The position numbers and the translations under genes are program-made. This document shows, piece by piece, positions 34,920 through 41,925 of a DNA stretch of 45,883 nucleotides. The notes beneath the pieces were generated by a model. The model saw only the letters and a list, made by a program, of their open reading frames with translations, made no database searches and was not told the origin of the DNA. Source of the stretch: Erysipelothrix sp. (lineage in GTDB: Bacteria > Bacillota_I > Bacilli_A > Erysipelotrichales > Erysipelotrichaceae); the NCBI GenBank assembly GCA_012735275.1, contig JAAYHR010000003.1, positions 1 to 45,883 on the forward strand. Direction: 5' to 3'. Within the stretch, counting starts at the first letter, position 1. Each line of letters opens with the position of its first letter.

Positions 34920-36164
34920 CTAAATTAAATCTTTGTTGATCTTATCCATCATTAGTTCAGCCTGACCTTTTTCAAAAAGACTTGATAAGGCTTCATAAGT
35001 ATTAGCATCAAAGGCTTGCTTATCACAGAGATAAGTTCGATATTGATTAGATAATGATATTGGCCAAACCTTATCTAAATTAAGTTGGCTAACTAAACTA
35101 GTAAAGATTTCTCCCGATAGGTTTAAAAACTTATAACCATCAATCTCAACAATGGAATAATTGAACGGGTAACTCGTCATAGTGTATCCTTGTTTACTAT
35201 GGTGTAAGTTAATCATATTACCTTCAAGCGTTCCACGTAATGCCCTTAAGGCATACTTATCTAGCTTATCAGCAAGCCCATTATTATAGGCAAGTAAACT
35301 TTCATCATATAATTTTTGAGCTCTTTCAATTGATAAGAAATCTTTTACTTTTAAATCATAAGTATAATCGGTAAACTTATAATTTTTTATCTGTTTTGAT
35401 TCTGATAAGTTAGTTAATGTTTTCCTAATATTTTCATAAGCAATCATCCCTAAACGCTCAAGTTCAGCAATCGATGATTCGCGCTTAGTGTAGCGTGTCG
35501 ACATATCACCACATGGTGCATTAAAGAAAAGGTTATAAGTATAATCACTTGCTAATGCTTGACTAATAACGCCAACATAATCAGGTGATATTAATGTACT
35601 TTTTGAATCTAAGATCGTTGGATGACCAGCAAATGAGTAGAGTAAACTCTTATTAGCATCAGCTTGGCTAATCTCAATTACAAGAATATCATCAAAGGCC
35701 TCAGCATCTTTATTGATGCGATTAGTTTGAAAGTTTTCCATCTTGCCATGTGCATATTTATAAGTAAAGTCTTGTTTAGAGTTAATACTAGTTACAATGG
35801 CTGTCTTTGCTTGTTTAAGCAGATAGTCAAAGTAATCTATTTCAGACTGTTTAGTATTAGGACTATTATACTCTGCTTCATTTAAGCATTTAGGCGCTGA
35901 GTGAGTATGACTTGAGAACATTTGAAAATGCTCAATGGTAATTCCATCACTATCGAGTGTTTTTAATAGTTGATCTTGAAAGAAAAGATCAAAGCCTAAG
36001 ATGTCACCTGTGATCCAGGTATAGGTCTTATCATTATCAACTAAAGAAACAGCTTTAACATATATATCTTTTTCGATACCATCACAGTTTCTACTTGGGG
36101 TATATCCAACCATTTCCGTATCCATGATTGGGGTAATAATTGCTTGTCCAAATCCGATTTGCAT
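34920..36164 (-). CDS. Neutral/alkaline ceramidase-like hydrolase, no signal peptide
   Basis: MQIGFGQAIITPIMDTEMVGY, FSSHTHSAP metal-binding motif, FFNAPCGDMST nucleophile-region-like, SFAGHPTIL. Confidence 0.78.
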   Translation of the reverse strand: MQIGFGQAIITPIMDTEMVGYTPSRNCDGIEKDIYVKAVSLVDNDKTYTWITGDILGFDLFFQDQLLKTLDSDGITIEHFQMFSSHTHSAPKCLNEAEYNSPNTKQSEIDYFDYLLKQAKTAIVTSINSKQDFTYKYAHGKMENFQTNRINKDAEAFDDILVIEISQADANKSLLYSFAGHPTILDSKSTLISPDYVGVISQALASDYTYNLFFNAPCGDMSTRYTKRESSIAELERLGMIAYENIRKTLTNLSESKQIKNYKFTDYTYDLKVKDFLSIERAQKLYDESLLAYNNGLADKLDKYALRALRGTLEGNMINLHHSKQGYTMTSYPFNYSIVEIDGYKFLNLSGEIFTSLVSQLNLDKVWPISLSNQYRTYLCDKQAFDANTYEALSSLFEKGQAELMMDKINKDLI

Positions 36165-36175
36165 AAAATCCTCCT

Positions 36176-36574
36176 TTAATCTAAATAAGTTACTTCTAGT
36201 TTTAATCTATCTGGTCCCTCAAAGAAGAGGGAATATGTCGACCCACCAGCATGTGGGTAGTCTTGATCATATAGTAGTTTAATATTTTTAGAAATTAAGT
36301 CTTGTCTAAGTTCATCAATAAGGGCTTTTGAATCTGAGATGAATGCTAAATGGTTAAGACCAATGTTTTTTCGATGATAAGAATTGTTAGCAAAGTCAGC
36401 TTCAACTTGAACAAAGACTAGATAAGTATTATCTAGTTTCAGTGAGAAGCCTAGTTCCCATTCTTGATATAGCTCATAGTTAAACTTAGCTAATAAATAT
36501 GTGTAGAAACTTTTTGCTTCATCTAAGTTTCTGACATTGATTTCGATATGACTTACTTGCCCATGTTTAAGCAT
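36176..36574 (-). CDS. VOC/glyoxalase-family protein
   Basis: VSHIEINVRNLDEAKSFYTYLL, GLNHLAFISDS, FFEGPDRLKLEV. Confidence 0.88.
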   Translation of the reverse strand: MLKHGQVSHIEINVRNLDEAKSFYTYLLAKFNYELYQEWELGFSLKLDNTYLVFVQVEADFANNSYHRKNIGLNHLAFISDSKALIDELRQDLISKNIKLLYDQDYPHAGGSTYSLFFEGPDRLKLEVTYLD

Positions 36575-37755
36575 TAGACTAGTTCACCTTTCATTCTGAC
36601 TTTTAAATATAATCCAATTGAAATTCCAGCAAATCCACATAGTATTGAAATAATAAATGGAGTCGAAACATTAAATCTTGTAATAACTGCTGCCGCAACT
36701 AGTGGATAGATAATCCCTGTTAATCCGTTTACAATTGCTGGACCTGTCATCTGACCGGTTGTTTTTAATTTTTCAGGCGACATCTTTAGTAGTAGATACT
36801 TAATGGAAACCTGATAGAGCGGTACTGAAATTACTTGCCCAATTGTTATAAATAGAATTGCGTTGTTGGATGTTGCAAAGAAGTATCCAAAGAACTGAAG
36901 GGTATGCATTGAGATACCAATTATCGCCATATTTAAAGCACCGATGCGCTTGTAGATACGATCCCCAATTAACATAAGTGGAACTTCAACTCCGGCTGCG
37001 ATCATACCACGATTAGAGATTACAAATTCATTTCCACCAAGTTCTAATATTTTCTCAACAACAACAAAACCGGTTAAGTTAACAGCAAAGTTTACAAAGA
37101 GTAACATGGAGATTGCGATTAGATAATCTTTATCTTTAAATAGTTCAATAATATCTTTAATATTAATTGCTTCCTTAACTTCACTGGTTGCTTTTAAGGC
37201 CTTATCATCAGTAATCGCAATCATAATTACTAAGATAATAATTGATAAGAGTAAGATGCTCATTGCTAAACCTTGATAGCCGAATGCGAAAACGATTCTT
37301 GCTAAAAGGAAAGATCCAATTGACCAACCAGCAGAACCAAATGCCCGAATAAAACCATAATTATTTTTATATGGTCCTTCAGATGCTAAGACCCAAACAT
37401 CGGACAAGTCGGTAATCGCAATTACAAATGATTGTGATAATAGGGCAATTGCGAAATGGAAAATATAAAATTGGACTTGAATCGAATAAAAGAAGTATGA
37501 TGTAATTGCTGAAAATAAGATTAATGGAAGCATTATCTTCTTAACGGTACGATAGCGATCAGAAAAATATCCAGCAATCATCTGCATGGATATTGTTACA
37601 ATCGGGATAATCGCAAAAATGTATGATCTTTGGTTAAGATTATAACCAACATGATTTAAAAATGATTGTCTTTGAGATGAAATTAATGCAAAGCTCGTGT
37701 AATGAACTAAATACATCATGGCAAAATTCATCGTGTAGTTATCTTTTTTCTTCAT
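36574..37755 (-). CDS. MFS transporter
   Basis: About 12 hydrophobic segments; 'AGYFSDRYRTVKK' MFS loop motif. Confidence 0.88.
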   Translation of the reverse strand: MKKKDNYTMNFAMMYLVHYTSFALISSQRQSFLNHVGYNLNQRSYIFAIIPIVTISMQMIAGYFSDRYRTVKKIMLPLILFSAITSYFFYSIQVQFYIFHFAIALLSQSFVIAITDLSDVWVLASEGPYKNNYGFIRAFGSAGWSIGSFLLARIVFAFGYQGLAMSILLLSIIILVIMIAITDDKALKATSEVKEAINIKDIIELFKDKDYLIAISMLLFVNFAVNLTGFVVVEKILELGGNEFVISNRGMIAAGVEVPLMLIGDRIYKRIGALNMAIIGISMHTLQFFGYFFATSNNAILFITIGQVISVPLYQVSIKYLLLKMSPEKLKTTGQMTGPAIVNGLTGIIYPLVAAAVITRFNVSTPFIISILCGFAGISIGLYLKVRMKGELV

Positions 37756-37787
37756 TAATATTTCCTTATCTATAAGTATTCACATAC

Positions 37788-37892
37788 AAAAAAACATAAC
37801 AGTATTCAACTAAATAACTTAGTTGGCCTGATTGACTAATCAGGGAAAATAGCGAAGATAAGTTTCATCGCACAGGTTATTAACCTTCTATT
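37788..37892 (-). ncRNA. Structured 5' leader of MFS-VOC-ceramidase-like operon (class unknown)
   Basis: On minus strand after promoter: AGGTTAATAACCT, GCGA..TCGC hairpin (37852-37871), CCTGATT-AGTC-AATCAGG (37827-37844), CAACTAA-N5-TTAGTTG (37807-37825), then T7. Confidence 0.45.
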
Positions 37893-37898
37893 AATGAT

Positions 37899-37926
37899 AT
37901 TATACTCTTTATTTCAACTAGTTCAA
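37899..37926 (-). promoter_or_regulatory. Promoter of MFS operon
   Basis: Minus strand TTGAAC (37921-37926), 16 bp, TATAAT (37899-37904). Confidence 0.6.
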
Positions 37927-37950
37927 TACTTATTATTAATTTGTGTGAGT

Positions 37951-37964
37951 ATTGTATATACAAT
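37951..37964. promoter_or_regulatory. Candidate HutC/UTRA GntR operator
   Basis: Perfect palindrome ATTGTATATACAAT containing GTNTANAC core. Confidence 0.55.
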
Positions 37965-37998
37965 CTATGTAAATATTGTGTAAATGGGGTCGAAAACA

Positions 37999-38027
37999 TT
38001 GACACTAGCCAAATATGGTGTTATATT
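37999..38027 (+). promoter_or_regulatory. Promoter of SIS gene operon
   Basis: TTGACA (37999-38004), 17 bp, TATATT (38022-38027). Confidence 0.75.
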
Positions 38028-38071
38028 TCAGGGGAAGGTATAAACAAAATAAGGAGGCTAATTAAAAGCTT

Positions 38072-38812
38072 ATGGAAAACAATTTATTAAAAGATTATTT
38101 TGAAACTACTAATAATATCGTTAAACGTTCATTTGAATTATCACAAGATGACATTAACGAATTGGCAGTAAAAGTTTCAGAAGACATGATCAAAGATGGG
38201 GTTATCCAATTATTTGGAGTCGGACATGATCTTGCCTTAAGTATGGAGTTAGGGTTTAGAGCAGGTGGACTCGTTCAATACCACATTATGGACATGCGTG
38301 ATCTACCACTTAGAGGTGTTATTAGCACTGAAGAAACTTTAGCGGAAGATTACTTAAAGCGTGATGACTTAGCTGAGAAATTAATGGCTATGTATAATGT
38401 TGAAGCTAATGATGCATTCTTACTTTATGTTTCAACGGAAGTACATCAGGTAACATTAGATTTAGCAAAACTTGCGAAAGCAAATGGTCATAATGTTTAC
38501 TTAATTACTAACAAGTCAGCTGTCGAAGCTACTAATATAAAAAATGCCCAAGAACTATTTGCAATAGTTGATCACATCGTTGATTTACACATTGCTTATC
38601 CAGACCAAATCTTTAGTTTAGATAACTTACAAGTAAGTCAAGTTTCAAACTTAGTTGCCAATATGTTTGCGCAATCTTTAACAATGGAAATTTATAAATA
38701 TATGAAATCTAAAAACTATGAGCCAGCAGTGTTATGGTCTATGAACATTGAAGGTGCTGATCAGCATAATAAAAATTTAACATCAAAATATGATGGCCGT
38801 TGGAATTCTTAG
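38072..38812 (+). CDS. SIS-domain protein, paralog 1 (divergent motifs)
   Basis: Collinear with next two ORFs; GVGHDLALSMELGFRAGGL; SNSG motif replaced by VSTEVHQ. Confidence 0.82.
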   Translation: MENNLLKDYFETTNNIVKRSFELSQDDINELAVKVSEDMIKDGVIQLFGVGHDLALSMELGFRAGGLVQYHIMDMRDLPLRGVISTEETLAEDYLKRDDLAEKLMAMYNVEANDAFLLYVSTEVHQVTLDLAKLAKANGHNVYLITNKSAVEATNIKNAQELFAIVDHIVDLHIAYPDQIFSLDNLQVSQVSNLVANMFAQSLTMEIYKYMKSKNYEPAVLWSMNIEGADQHNKNLTSKYDGRWNS

Positions 38813-38820
38813 GAGAAACT

Positions 38821-39567
38821 ATGAGAGAGATAAATACACAAGCATTTTTAGAAGATACATTTAAAGTGATTGATAATGTTTTAGAGCAACAAGCTGACAA
38901 CATTAGAGAAGCCGGAGCAATTTGTGCTAATGCCATTAAAAATGGTGGTGTTATTCAAGTCTTTGGAACAGGACACTCAGTTGGATTTGGTATGGAAATG
39001 CAAGGTAGACCAGGATCATTAGTTCCAGTTCATACAATGAACATCAGTGATTTTGTGACATCAGGTATGTACACGTTAGAAGAATTTAGAGATATGGATA
39101 ATATCTTTGAAAGAAGACCAGGCGTTGCTAGTAAGTTTTTTGACTTATATGAAATATCTGATCAAGATGTTTTCATTATTATTTCAAACTCAGGAATCAA
39201 TGGTTTAGTTATTGACTTAGCCGCAGCTGCGAAAGAGCGTAATCATAAAGTAATTGTTGTGACTAGTTTAGATCACACACTTAACTCAGATTCACGCCAT
39301 CCATCAGGTAAGAAGTTAATGGACTTTGGAGATGTTGTTATTGATAACTGTGGACCAAAAGGTGATGCAATGTTAGATTTAGCTGATGGTGGGAAAATTG
39401 GATCAGTCTCATCACTATCAGGTATCTATGTAGCACAAGGGGTTGCACTTGAAACAATTAAAAACTTACAAGATTTAGAAGAGTTACCAGTTCTAGTCTT
39501 TGAAGAAAATGAAGCAAGTAAAAAACAAAATGATGAGTTAAAAGAAAAATACAGAGGGAGAATTTAA
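38821..39567 (+). CDS. SIS-domain (UPF0309-like) protein, paralog 2
   Basis: GTGHSVGFGMEMQGRPGSL; IISNSGINGLVIDLAAAAKERNHKVIVVTSL; SRHPSGKKLMDFGDVVIDNCGPKGDA. Confidence 0.88.
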   Translation: MREINTQAFLEDTFKVIDNVLEQQADNIREAGAICANAIKNGGVIQVFGTGHSVGFGMEMQGRPGSLVPVHTMNISDFVTSGMYTLEEFRDMDNIFERRPGVASKFFDLYEISDQDVFIIISNSGINGLVIDLAAAAKERNHKVIVVTSLDHTLNSDSRHPSGKKLMDFGDVVIDNCGPKGDAMLDLADGGKIGSVSSLSGIYVAQGVALETIKNLQDLEELPVLVFEENEASKKQNDELKEKYRGRI

Positions 39568-39568
39568 G

Positions 39569-40294
39569 ATGGCTAAAAAATTTGAATATATTTCACTAGT
39601 ACAAGATTTATTTGATAAGGTTAATAATGAACAAGCAGAAGAAATTATGACATTAGCAAAAGAAATGGCAACAAATATCCGTGATAACAAAATCATTCAC
39701 GTATTTGGTACGGGCCATTCACACATGATCGGAATTGAATTATTCTGTCGTGCTGGTGGTTTAGCAAACGTTAATGCGATCTTAGATCAAGATACATTAA
39801 CTTCAAATGGAGCAAGAAGATCAGGTGCGCTTGAAAAACTTTCGGGCTTAGCTGATATCATGTATGATCAACACAATATTCAACCTGGTGATATGATGAT
39901 TATTACTTCAAACTCAGGTAGAAATGCTGTACCAATTGAAATGGCAATGCGTGCACAAAAAGAAGGTATTTATACAGTTGCTCTAACAAACTATGAGCAA
40001 AGTAAAAAAACTACTAGCCGCCACCATTCAGGTAAGAAATTATATGAATTTGCGGATTTAATTTTAGACAACTGTGTTCCAGAAGGCGATGCAATGGAAG
40101 AAGTTGGTGGCGTTTTAACGGCTCCAGCATCAAGTCTTTCATCAATGTTAATTCTTAATACAGCAGTTAACGAAGCTTTAAAAATCTTAGCAGCAGACGG
40201 TGTTGAATTACCAATCTTCCAATCACAAAATGTGGATGGCTTTGATAATGATGCCCTATATGCTAAATACGAAGATCGTGTAAAACATTTCTAA
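39569..40294 (+). CDS. SIS-domain (UPF0309-like) protein, paralog 3
   Basis: GTGHSHMIGIELFCRAGGL; ITSNSGRNAVPIEMAMRAQ; SRHHSGKKLYEFADLILDNCVPEGDA. Confidence 0.9.
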   Translation: MAKKFEYISLVQDLFDKVNNEQAEEIMTLAKEMATNIRDNKIIHVFGTGHSHMIGIELFCRAGGLANVNAILDQDTLTSNGARRSGALEKLSGLADIMYDQHNIQPGDMMIITSNSGRNAVPIEMAMRAQKEGIYTVALTNYEQSKKTTSRHHSGKKLYEFADLILDNCVPEGDAMEEVGGVLTAPASSLSSMLILNTAVNEALKILAADGVELPIFQSQNVDGFDNDALYAKYEDRVKHF

Positions 40295-40301
40295 TATAAG
40301 A

Positions 40302-40332
40302 AAAGCAGCACTCGTGTGCTGCTTTATTTTTA
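40302..40332. terminator. Bidirectional terminator
   Basis: AAAGCAGCAC..GTGCTGCTTT then T-run. Confidence 0.85.
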
Positions 40333-41127
40333 GATAATATTTAAATGTTTTAATGCTTTCTCAATGCCATCATCAAGAATATGACTAGTGACATAATCAG
40401 CATGTTCTTTTACTTCATCGTGGGCATTACCCATTGCGACACCAAATCTTGCTTTCTGCAACATTTCAATATCATTATGTGCGTCACCAAATGTAGCGAC
40501 ATTATCCCAAGTTAGGTCTAAGCGTTTTAAGACATCTTCGATATTCTTTGTCTTATCAACATCACAGCGCATTGCTTCAATTGCTGATTGATCAGAAGGG
40601 ACAAAACTTAAGTTAGGGATTAAAGCCGCAACTTCAGCTAGGGTTTCCGTTGGTGCAAAGTAATATACACCTAAGGCATCATTAGTTTTATAGAAGTCAT
40701 TGTGCTCATCAAACTTTAAATATTTAACGCCGGGATGATCATGGCCTACATAATTTTTTACAAAATTATTATAGTCACCATAGACACCGATAAATTTATT
40801 ATATTTAATGCCTAAGTCGTAATTGTTCTTCTGGCAATAATCAATTAGTGTTTTTAACGATTCGTTATCAAATGCGTATGATTGAATTATTTCTCCACTT
40901 GGATCATTTAAACATGCTCCATTAACTGTGACAAAGAAATCAGTATCAATCGATTTCTTAACATCTTCATGTATAAAGAAAAATGATCTACCAGTTGCGA
41001 TTAAAATCTCATAGCCTTTTTCTTTAGCTTGATTAATCGCTGCCTTAGCAGATGCTTCTACTGTTTGCTTACTTCGATCAATTAGTGTACCATCTATATC
41101 AAATACTAATAGTTTAATCTTATCCAT
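40330..41127 (-). CDS. Cof-type HAD-IIB family phosphatase
   Basis: LLVFDIDGTLIDRSKQTVEASAKAAI, ATGRS, FGDAHNDIEML, GVAMGNA. Confidence 0.94.
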   Translation of the reverse strand: MDKIKLLVFDIDGTLIDRSKQTVEASAKAAINQAKEKGYEILIATGRSFFFIHEDVKKSIDTDFFVTVNGACLNDPSGEIIQSYAFDNESLKTLIDYCQKNNYDLGIKYNKFIGVYGDYNNFVKNYVGHDHPGVKYLKFDEHNDFYKTNDALGVYYFAPTETLAEVAALIPNLSFVPSDQSAIEAMRCDVDKTKNIEDVLKRLDLTWDNVATFGDAHNDIEMLQKARFGVAMGNAHDEVKEHADYVTSHILDDGIEKALKHLNII

Positions 41128-41208
41128 AAATTAACCCTCTTTTCTATGTATTATTTTAACACATAGATAATTTAATAGAACAAAATATATAATAGTAAGG
41201 ATGATAAT

Positions 41209-41925
41209 ATGCAAGTATATAGTCAAAAAGATATCGTTAACGATATTATCAATAAAATAAAAGCTGGTCAGTTTAAATATGATCAAAAAATCGATACGGA
41301 AAGAGATCTAATGGACCAATATGGTGTCTCAAGAACAACGATTAGAAATGTAATCTCTGATTTAATTCTGCAAAGATATGTTTACCGTATTCCGGATACT
41401 GGTGTTTTTGTCCAAAAAGAAATCATCCGTAAAACATCATCAATCTTTGGATTTACTTCAATGATCAAAGATTCAGGAAGATTACCTTCAACGCGCATCT
41501 CACGCTTTGAAAAGATTATACCCGATGAGAATATTCTAGAAGCTATGAAACTTGAAGCCAATACGGAAGTTTACTTTACAGAACGTTTTCGTTATGTTGA
41601 TGGTAAACCATTCCTCTTTGAACAATCTTTTATCAATCCACACTTAGTAACTAATCTAGAAAAGTATGATTTTGAAGTTGATTCTATCTATCAAGTTTTA
41701 AGTGATGACTACAATGTTAAAATCCACTACTTACAAGAATTAGTATCGGCGGTAACCGTTGATGGGAAAATATCTGATTTTCTTTATGGAACCTCGACAG
41801 CTTATTCACTAAAAGTTGAAGGTGTCTCATATGATAATAAGGATCAAGTTATTGAATATGGAATATCTTACTATCATGCTGAGGACTTTTCTTTTGAGAG
41901 TGTTCTAGTTAATTTAAAAGGATAA
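41209..41925 (+). CDS. GntR-family regulator, HutC subfamily (UTRA domain)
   Basis: YDQKIDTERDLMDQYGVSRTTIRNVISDLI; UTRA-type C-terminus. Confidence 0.93.
   Translation: MQVYSQKDIVNDIINKIKAGQFKYDQKIDTERDLMDQYGVSRTTIRNVISDLILQRYVYRIPDTGVFVQKEIIRKTSSIFGFTSMIKDSGRLPSTRISRFEKIIPDENILEAMKLEANTEVYFTERFRYVDGKPFLFEQSFINPHLVTNLEKYDFEVDSIYQVLSDDYNVKIHYLQELVSAVTVDGKISDFLYGTSTAYSLKVEGVSYDNKDQVIEYGISYYHAEDFSFESVLVNLKG

Follow-up and report, generated by a model that had tools for sequence, protein, structure and literature searches.

A locus at positions 34,920 to 41,925 of a 45,883-nucleotide stretch of Erysipelothrix sp. DNA (contig JAAYHR010000003.1; the whole stretch is termed the window) encodes a ceramidase-fold hydrolase, CER, and three tandem sugar isomerase (SIS) proteins of the UPF0309 family, SIS1, SIS2 and SIS3. 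Residue patterns set these three proteins apart from one another, a point missed by an earlier annotation made from the sequence alone (the original prediction): SIS1 and SIS2 appear to have lost opposite halves of one active site and probably work only as a pair. The gene set most likely degrades N-acylated amino sugars. The source genome belongs to the Erysipelotrichaceae and is ∼1.07 Mb in size and 85% complete. Below, folds, residue patterns, gene linkage and shared palindromes were established by comparison, L-numbers denote sampled loci, and C58 is a further contig of the same genome.

A predicted composite active site in SIS1 and SIS2

The SIS proteins share family and fold with NagS (SCO4393; PDB 9eol, 9f7o and 9f7v), the N-acetylglucosamine (GlcNAc) 6-phosphate dehydratase of Streptomyces. 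The NagS active site is common to two monomers, one of which provides H53, S54, E94, S119 and S121 (here, the own side) and the other R64 and N228 (the donated side); H53, R64, E94 and D179 are essential for activity, and S91 and N228 are important (PMC12680351). The three genes in the window are as follows.

38072..38812, plus strand: SIS1, UPF0309 SIS paralogue with a degenerate own-side site and the donated loop retained (SIS_2/PRK02947, 135.6 bits)
38821..39567, plus strand: SIS2, UPF0309 SIS paralogue with own-side catalytic residues retained and the donated Asn228 gone (PRK02947, 235.4 bits)
39569..40294, plus strand: SIS3, UPF0309 SIS protein with a complete NagS-type site, predicted homodimer (PRK02947, 258.2 bits)

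The NCBIfam cut-off for UPF0309/PRK02947 is 135 bits, which SIS1 passes barely and SIS2 and SIS3 clearly. Matches to NagS were obtained at 2.5e-33 for SIS3, 1.2e-20 for SIS2 and 3.2e-11 for SIS1. All three proteins fall below the orthology criterion (at least 58.7% identity to Streptomycetaceae NagS) and are distant homologues only; furthermore, NagS is the product of one gene, whereas three paralogues are present here, two of them with complementary losses. The closest solved structure to SIS1–3 is BH3325, a “putative phosphoheptose isomerase” (PDB 3cvj; 9e-45 with SIS3); it differs in that it is uncharacterised, is encoded by one gene and has its site complete. TAL-effector matches of SIS3 were rejected as apparent repeat artefacts. 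The AlphaFold2 (AF2) model of SIS1, with a predicted local distance difference test (pLDDT) score of 92, has the fold of 3cvj and of NagS 9eol (TMq 0.83–0.84), and mean column identity across 12 members is 57%. Given this good SIS fold and its own conservation, SIS1 is not considered to be a decaying gene.

Residues were counted by mapping SIS1/SIS2 pairs on the NagS structure, with 37 distinct pairs available, and SIS3 was taken from 39 triplets. The own-side set is retained in full by SIS2 in 37/37 pairs, and the donated Asn228 in 0/37. In SIS1, by contrast, Ser54 is present in none of the pairs, Glu94 in one and Ser121 in seven, whereas on the donated side Arg64 and A65 are each found in 37/37 and Asn228 in 36/37. 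SIS3 retains each listed residue of both halves in 38–39 of the 39 triplets, and the window protein carries H53, S54, R64, E94, S119, S121, D179 and N228. As aligned, Ser at position 91 is absent from SIS3 and very rare in SIS1 and SIS2. Five of the pairs, fetched after the pattern had been defined, all conformed to it (5/5); three were without an adjoining SIS3, and one SIS2 has Lys at position 64. Four SIS2-like proteins that have no adjoining SIS1 (L085, L099, L100 and L118) all retain Asn228. In a phylogenetic tree SIS1 forms one clade and SIS2 another, both grouping with the complete-site proteins of L099 and L100, which points to duplication followed by complementary loss. Because the pairs share ancestry, they do not represent 37 independent events.

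Given that the own-side and donated-side losses are complementary, SIS1 and SIS2 are predicted to form an obligate heterodimer that has a single composite site. SIS2 would provide His53, Ser54, Glu94, Ser119 and Ser121, SIS1 would provide the partner-donated Arg64/Asn228 side, and SIS3 would be an ordinary homodimer. The combination of an active subunit with a dead paralogue resembles the prozyme heterodimer of Trypanosoma brucei AdoMetDC (PMC5201418), although the dead partner there relieves autoinhibition, whereas direct sharing of one active site is predicted here. Alternatively, SIS1 might donate no residues and instead be a regulatory pseudoenzyme, either an allosteric subunit or a sensor of sugar phosphates, with the loss of Asn228 from SIS2 reflecting a changed substrate. 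A protein that lacks Ser54, Glu94 and mostly Ser121, yet keeps the fold and is itself strongly conserved, could play such a role; SIS domains also act as sensors, and MurR/NanR-like matches to the SIS1 model were obtained. This alternative is considered rather unlikely, since the residues kept and lost by SIS1 and SIS2 divide along the own-/donated-side line of the NagS dimer and the retention of Asn228 in lone SIS2-like proteins is not predicted by a sensor role.

SIS1-SIS2-SIS3 or SIS1-SIS2 arrangements are present in many Erysipelotrichaceae genera. A survey of 395 genomes from across the class gave nine strong SIS1 matches (>250 bits), all in Erysipelotrichaceae and each with an adjoining SIS2. 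Within 10 kb of the triplet in 35 loci, B/C/D genes of the phosphotransferase system (PTS) were found in 19, NagA in 16 and CER in 10. CutC-family genes also lie by the SIS triplet (L135:12887-13630 and 10 other loci), which hints at a sugar role for CutC.

Fold and metal site of CER

34920..36164, minus strand: CER, cytosolic ceramidase-fold hydrolase of 414 aa, predicted Zn-dependent N-acyl amidase (PF04734, E=8e-12)

The N terminus of CER reads MQIGFGQAIITP; as originally described, the protein has no signal peptide and contains the motifs FSSHTHSAP and GDMST. The Pfam match spans positions 2–226 of the model only, and no C-terminal family was matched. A PDB search with the CER sequence alone found no true homologue, whereas a profile search matched 4wgk (1.6e-31) and 2zws (6.8e-27); nothing matched when genome contigs were scanned with the single CER sequence. 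The AF2 model has a pLDDT of 95.4, and the only confident Foldseek matches were the neutral ceramidases of Pseudomonas aeruginosa (2zxc and 2zws) and human (4wgk), with TMq values of 0.71–0.76 and a probability of 1.00. Eight residues are invariant across 52 CER homologues: H86, H88, R149, H181, S222, R224, Y378 and E391. In the profile alignment, the HTHS, CHPT, PGE and Y-x-x-Y positions of CER align with 4wgk and 2zws, and we take these positions to be the His, His, Glu and Tyr zinc ligands of neutral ceramidase. The presumed nucleophile is S222, the Ser of the GDxS motif, which lies in a stretch outside the printed profile alignment with the known structures. As a speculation, R224, close behind S222, could bind phosphate.

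CER thus shares with neutral ceramidases the fold of the catalytic part and the conserved H, H, E and Y metal positions, but structural identity is only 13–16%. That fold and those ligands would also be expected of a true ceramidase or sphingolipid enzyme whose position among sugar genes is incidental. Such a role is most improbable for a protein that lacks both the signal peptide and the C-terminal (Ig-like) domain and is recurrently linked with PTS, SIS and amino-sugar genes. Given these absences and the gene context, a cytosolic amino-sugar N-deacylase is the best reading; from its fold, metal site and context, CER is probably a zinc enzyme acting on an amino sugar or amino-sugar phosphate. 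Two other leads were discarded. An internal TAA in CER genes of one genus (g3), considered as recoding, proved to be the natural stop codon included in the match, and the “ceramidase SrfJ” of an inositol paper is a glycosylceramidase-like protein with no relation to CER.

Linkage of CER and SIS genes across genomes

Sampling by hydrolase sequence alone gave 89 CER loci, in two samples with a few genomes in common. A UPF0309 SIS gene lay within 8 kb of CER in 33 of them and directly adjacent in 19, against ∼2% expected by chance (our estimate from about two SIS genes per 2-Mb genome). Among 83 distinct CER proteins, 32 had an SIS gene nearby, and the linkage occurred in both deep CER clades. 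The taxa concerned were Bacillota and one archaeon of the Thermoprotei. The arrangement is well above chance, with homologous neighborhoods in many genomes, and the co-occurrence that the original prediction had offered as its own test was upheld in relatives and beyond. No relevant report of CER-SIS linkage or of an SIS heterodimer was found in the literature, a weak negative given that subscription papers were mostly outside coverage.

Near the 89 CER loci, Man-family PTS genes were found in 28 cases, NagA in 13 and NanE in 7, and NagB was also among the contexts. A different substrate is suggested by the recurrence of MurQ genes (TIGR00274) and of a PF00144 beta-lactamase-like gene near the SIS triplet, together with the relationship of the SIS fold to MurQ: in a muropeptide or N-acetylmuramyl locus, CER would be a lactyl-peptide amidase and the SIS proteins MurQ-like etherases. 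The etherase step is already covered wherever MurQ is present, the PTS EIIA is AgaF-like, and the GH84 and NanE contexts indicate GlcNAc or N-acetylmannosamine, so this assignment is very doubtful.

Several variant neighborhoods were observed. In the Thermoprotei archaeon B15_G16 (L116/L117) an SIS-NagA-CER cluster is present; the same contig gives the cluster twice, probably through assembly duplication. A CER subclade without SIS (L048, L108, L109, L112, L113 and L114) is accompanied by an RpiR regulator, a cellobiose-type PTS and, frequently, a ChbG/YdjC-like gene; these neighbors suggest a chitobiose-like substrate. In L078:685-5247 and L087:7584-12084, two ceramidase-fold genes per cluster, one from each deep clade, flank SIS and a nucleotidyltransferase-like gene. 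Directly 3′ of CER-SIS pairs, a hexapeptide-repeat protein is encoded in L033:7456-8799, L072:11963-13339 and 7 more loci, in some with a recognisable nucleotidyltransferase domain.

Gene organization in the window and in strain HDW6A

The remaining features of the locus are as follows.

36176..36574, minus strand: VOC/glyoxalase-fold protein (PF00903)
36574..37755, minus strand: MFS transporter, sugar-type MFS_1_like
37951..37964: perfect 14-bp palindrome ATTGTATATACAAT, putative GntR operator, in the divergent MFS/SIS1 promoter region
∼40303..40331: terminator-like hairpin AGCAGCAC-TCGT-GTGCTGCT with a T-rich tail, between the convergent SIS3 and HAD genes (read from sequence)
40330..41127, minus strand: Cof-type HAD-IIB phosphatase (TIGR00099, 168.5 bits), kept with the locus
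41209..41925, plus strand: GntR/HutC-type regulator with a UTRA domain (PF07702, PF00392)

The MFS, VOC and CER genes on the minus strand, divergent from the three plus-strand SIS genes, lie where the original prediction placed them and belong to the families it named, as does the UTRA GntR protein. For SIS2, the ATG at 38821, preceded by AGGAG, was preferred over the TTG at 38800 as the start. The HAD gene had been taken to follow in the SIS operon. Its Cof-type family is correct, but it is on the minus strand, beyond the hairpin, convergent with SIS3 and divergent from gntR, and is therefore not a continuation of that operon. The GntR protein contains helix-turn-helix and UTRA domains and scores below every NCBIfam equivalog cut-off; it is therefore given no named subfamily.

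A parent arrangement is found in Erysipelothrix sp. HDW6A (L066/L128), where the order is NagA ... SIS4, EIIA-like, a domain of unknown function (DUF) gene, EIIB, EIIC, EIID, AgaF-like EIIA, CER, SIS1, SIS2, SIS3, GntR (minus strand) and HAD; the window GntR and HAD proteins are 53% and 52% identical to their HDW6A counterparts. Contig C58 carries SIS4, EIIA-like, DUF, EIIB, EIIC, EIID and AgaF-like EIIA genes, a beta-lactamase-like gene and two NagA genes, both of which exceed the TIGR00221 cut-off. The source genome also has two NagB-family genes at other places. Given the HDW6A synteny and the PTS/NagA half on C58, the window locus is therefore the other half of the set. SIS4 (L123:11777-12511, L066:4487-5221), a fourth, divergent UPF0309 protein heading the PTS operon, has Arg in place of the catalytic Glu94 and is without Ser54. 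Between EIIA-like and EIIB, a 308-aa protein (L123:10342-11268, L066:5745-6674), near triplets in 9 loci, gave no significant Pfam or NCBIfam match.

Relative to the HDW6A set, the window half carries an added MFS gene, at genus level, and an added VOC gene, here only. An MFS homologue adjoins CER and SIS3 in the same genus (G001/L032), and no close homologue was found in related loci outside it; a VOC homologue was found in no related locus compared. Both genes are therefore placed outside the conserved core. A place for VOC in the system is not borne out, nor is MFS as the usual importer, as relatives use a PTS and the source genome has a matching PTS/NagA cluster on C58.

Palindromes and the putative GntR operator

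The palindrome core, TTGTATATACAA, occurs as one exact copy in the 1.07-Mb source genome, in the divergent MFS/SIS1 region. The HDW6A genome (2.04 Mb) has two exact copies, one in the CER/SIS1 gap and one immediately 5′ of a separate nagA-like gene. With one mismatch allowed, 16 sites were found in HDW6A, and 4 of these lie inside the 21-kb locus, upstream of NagA, SIS4, EIIB and SIS1, as compared with 0.135 in shuffles (P = 2e-5 by position). The pattern was chosen from the window site and after that site was known, and the HDW6A result is for this reason a real test. The GntR protein may bind TTGTATATACAA as its operator. Gene linkage, together with palindromes that tie SIS1 to NagA and PTS genes, therefore argues for an amino-sugar regulon. 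The outline of the original prediction, a catabolic locus for an N-acylated amino sugar, is sustained by the linkage to NagA, NanE, NagB and a GalNAc-type PTS and by the palindrome; the roles given to VOC and MFS are not.

DISCUSSION

Considered as a whole, the locus fairly probably represents a half split off from an N-acyl-hexosamine regulon, with CER as a deacylase, a composite SIS1:SIS2 enzyme, a SIS3 homodimer and control by the GntR protein. The substrate, of GlcNAc or N-acetylgalactosamine (GalNAc) type, the chemistry, the heterodimer and operator binding are what we infer. Sugar would be imported by the Man-family PTS encoded on C58, perhaps also by MFS, to give a sugar 6-phosphate, and CER would cleave off an N-acyl or amide-linked group outside the range of NagA. 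The resulting or a parallel sugar phosphate would then be a substrate for the SIS enzymes, through ring opening and C2 proton abstraction of the H53/E94 type, and the product would enter the NagA/NagB route. The GntR protein would govern the regulon through TTGTATATACAA.

In SIS chemistry, H53 and E94 probably also remove the C2 proton. Ring opening by this pair is described for NagS (PMC12680351). Because isomerisation, deamination and NagS/MurQ-like elimination begin alike, the type of reaction is not readable from the residues. By analogy with AgaA-AgaS, deacylation and an SIS isomerase/deaminase would be the plainest reading. The Aga and Nag pathways (AgaA-AgaS, or NagA-NagB with a Man-family PTS) likely share with this system the logic of PTS import, N-deacylation and an SIS or deaminase step, and have NagA, NagB and the AgaF-like EIIA in common with it; they differ in that a ceramidase-fold deacylase is present here and a UPF0309 SIS triplet stands in place of AgaS.

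Several observations weigh against the favored interpretation. The division of residues is incomplete: SIS1 keeps His53 in 30/37 pairs and Asp179 in 36/37, and SIS2 keeps Arg64 in 36/37. The HDW6A SIS1 gene (L066:11255-12075) is frameshifted at the conserved FRAGG motif, by sequencing error or a real lesion. No kinase gene adjoins MFS, and no TTGTATATACAA site with up to 2 mismatches is present in the C58 half, so that joint control of both halves in the source genome is not supported. Finally, the ∼30%-identical NagS homologues assayed outside Streptomycetaceae (Clostridium, Paenibacillus and Acidothermus) did not dehydrate GlcNAc-6P (PMC12680351).

This inactivity also weakens the case for a NagS-like elimination, in which SIS would form a 6P-chromogen-I-type enamide by dehydrating an N-acetylhexosamine 6-phosphate, and this product would be deacylated by CER. 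SIS3 has nearly all the NagS catalytic residues, Streptomyces NagA deacetylates the NagS product (PMC12680351), and some CER-SIS operons have NanE and are without NagA (e.g. L080 and L087). The route is toxic in Streptomyces, however, and NagA is also present in many CER loci; an elimination of this kind is therefore doubtful.

The favored interpretation, a deacylase acting with a composite SIS enzyme, extends to a tentative proposal: the complementary-loss SIS1:SIS2 heterodimer and CER may constitute an undescribed amino-sugar-phosphate route, of isomerase/deaminase or eliminase type, that is spread through the Erysipelotrichaceae and of which a simpler form, made up of CER and SIS, is present in archaea and other Bacillota. 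The three SIS genes carry no annotation beyond “sugar isomerase domain-containing protein”, and for them the analysis offers a prediction at the level of single residues, that of a two-subunit enzyme arising by complementary loss after duplication. A large group of gut-bacterial cytosolic “ceramidases” would likewise belong to amino-sugar catabolism and not to the breakdown of lipids, a point that bears on the reading of ceramidase genes in microbiome annotation.

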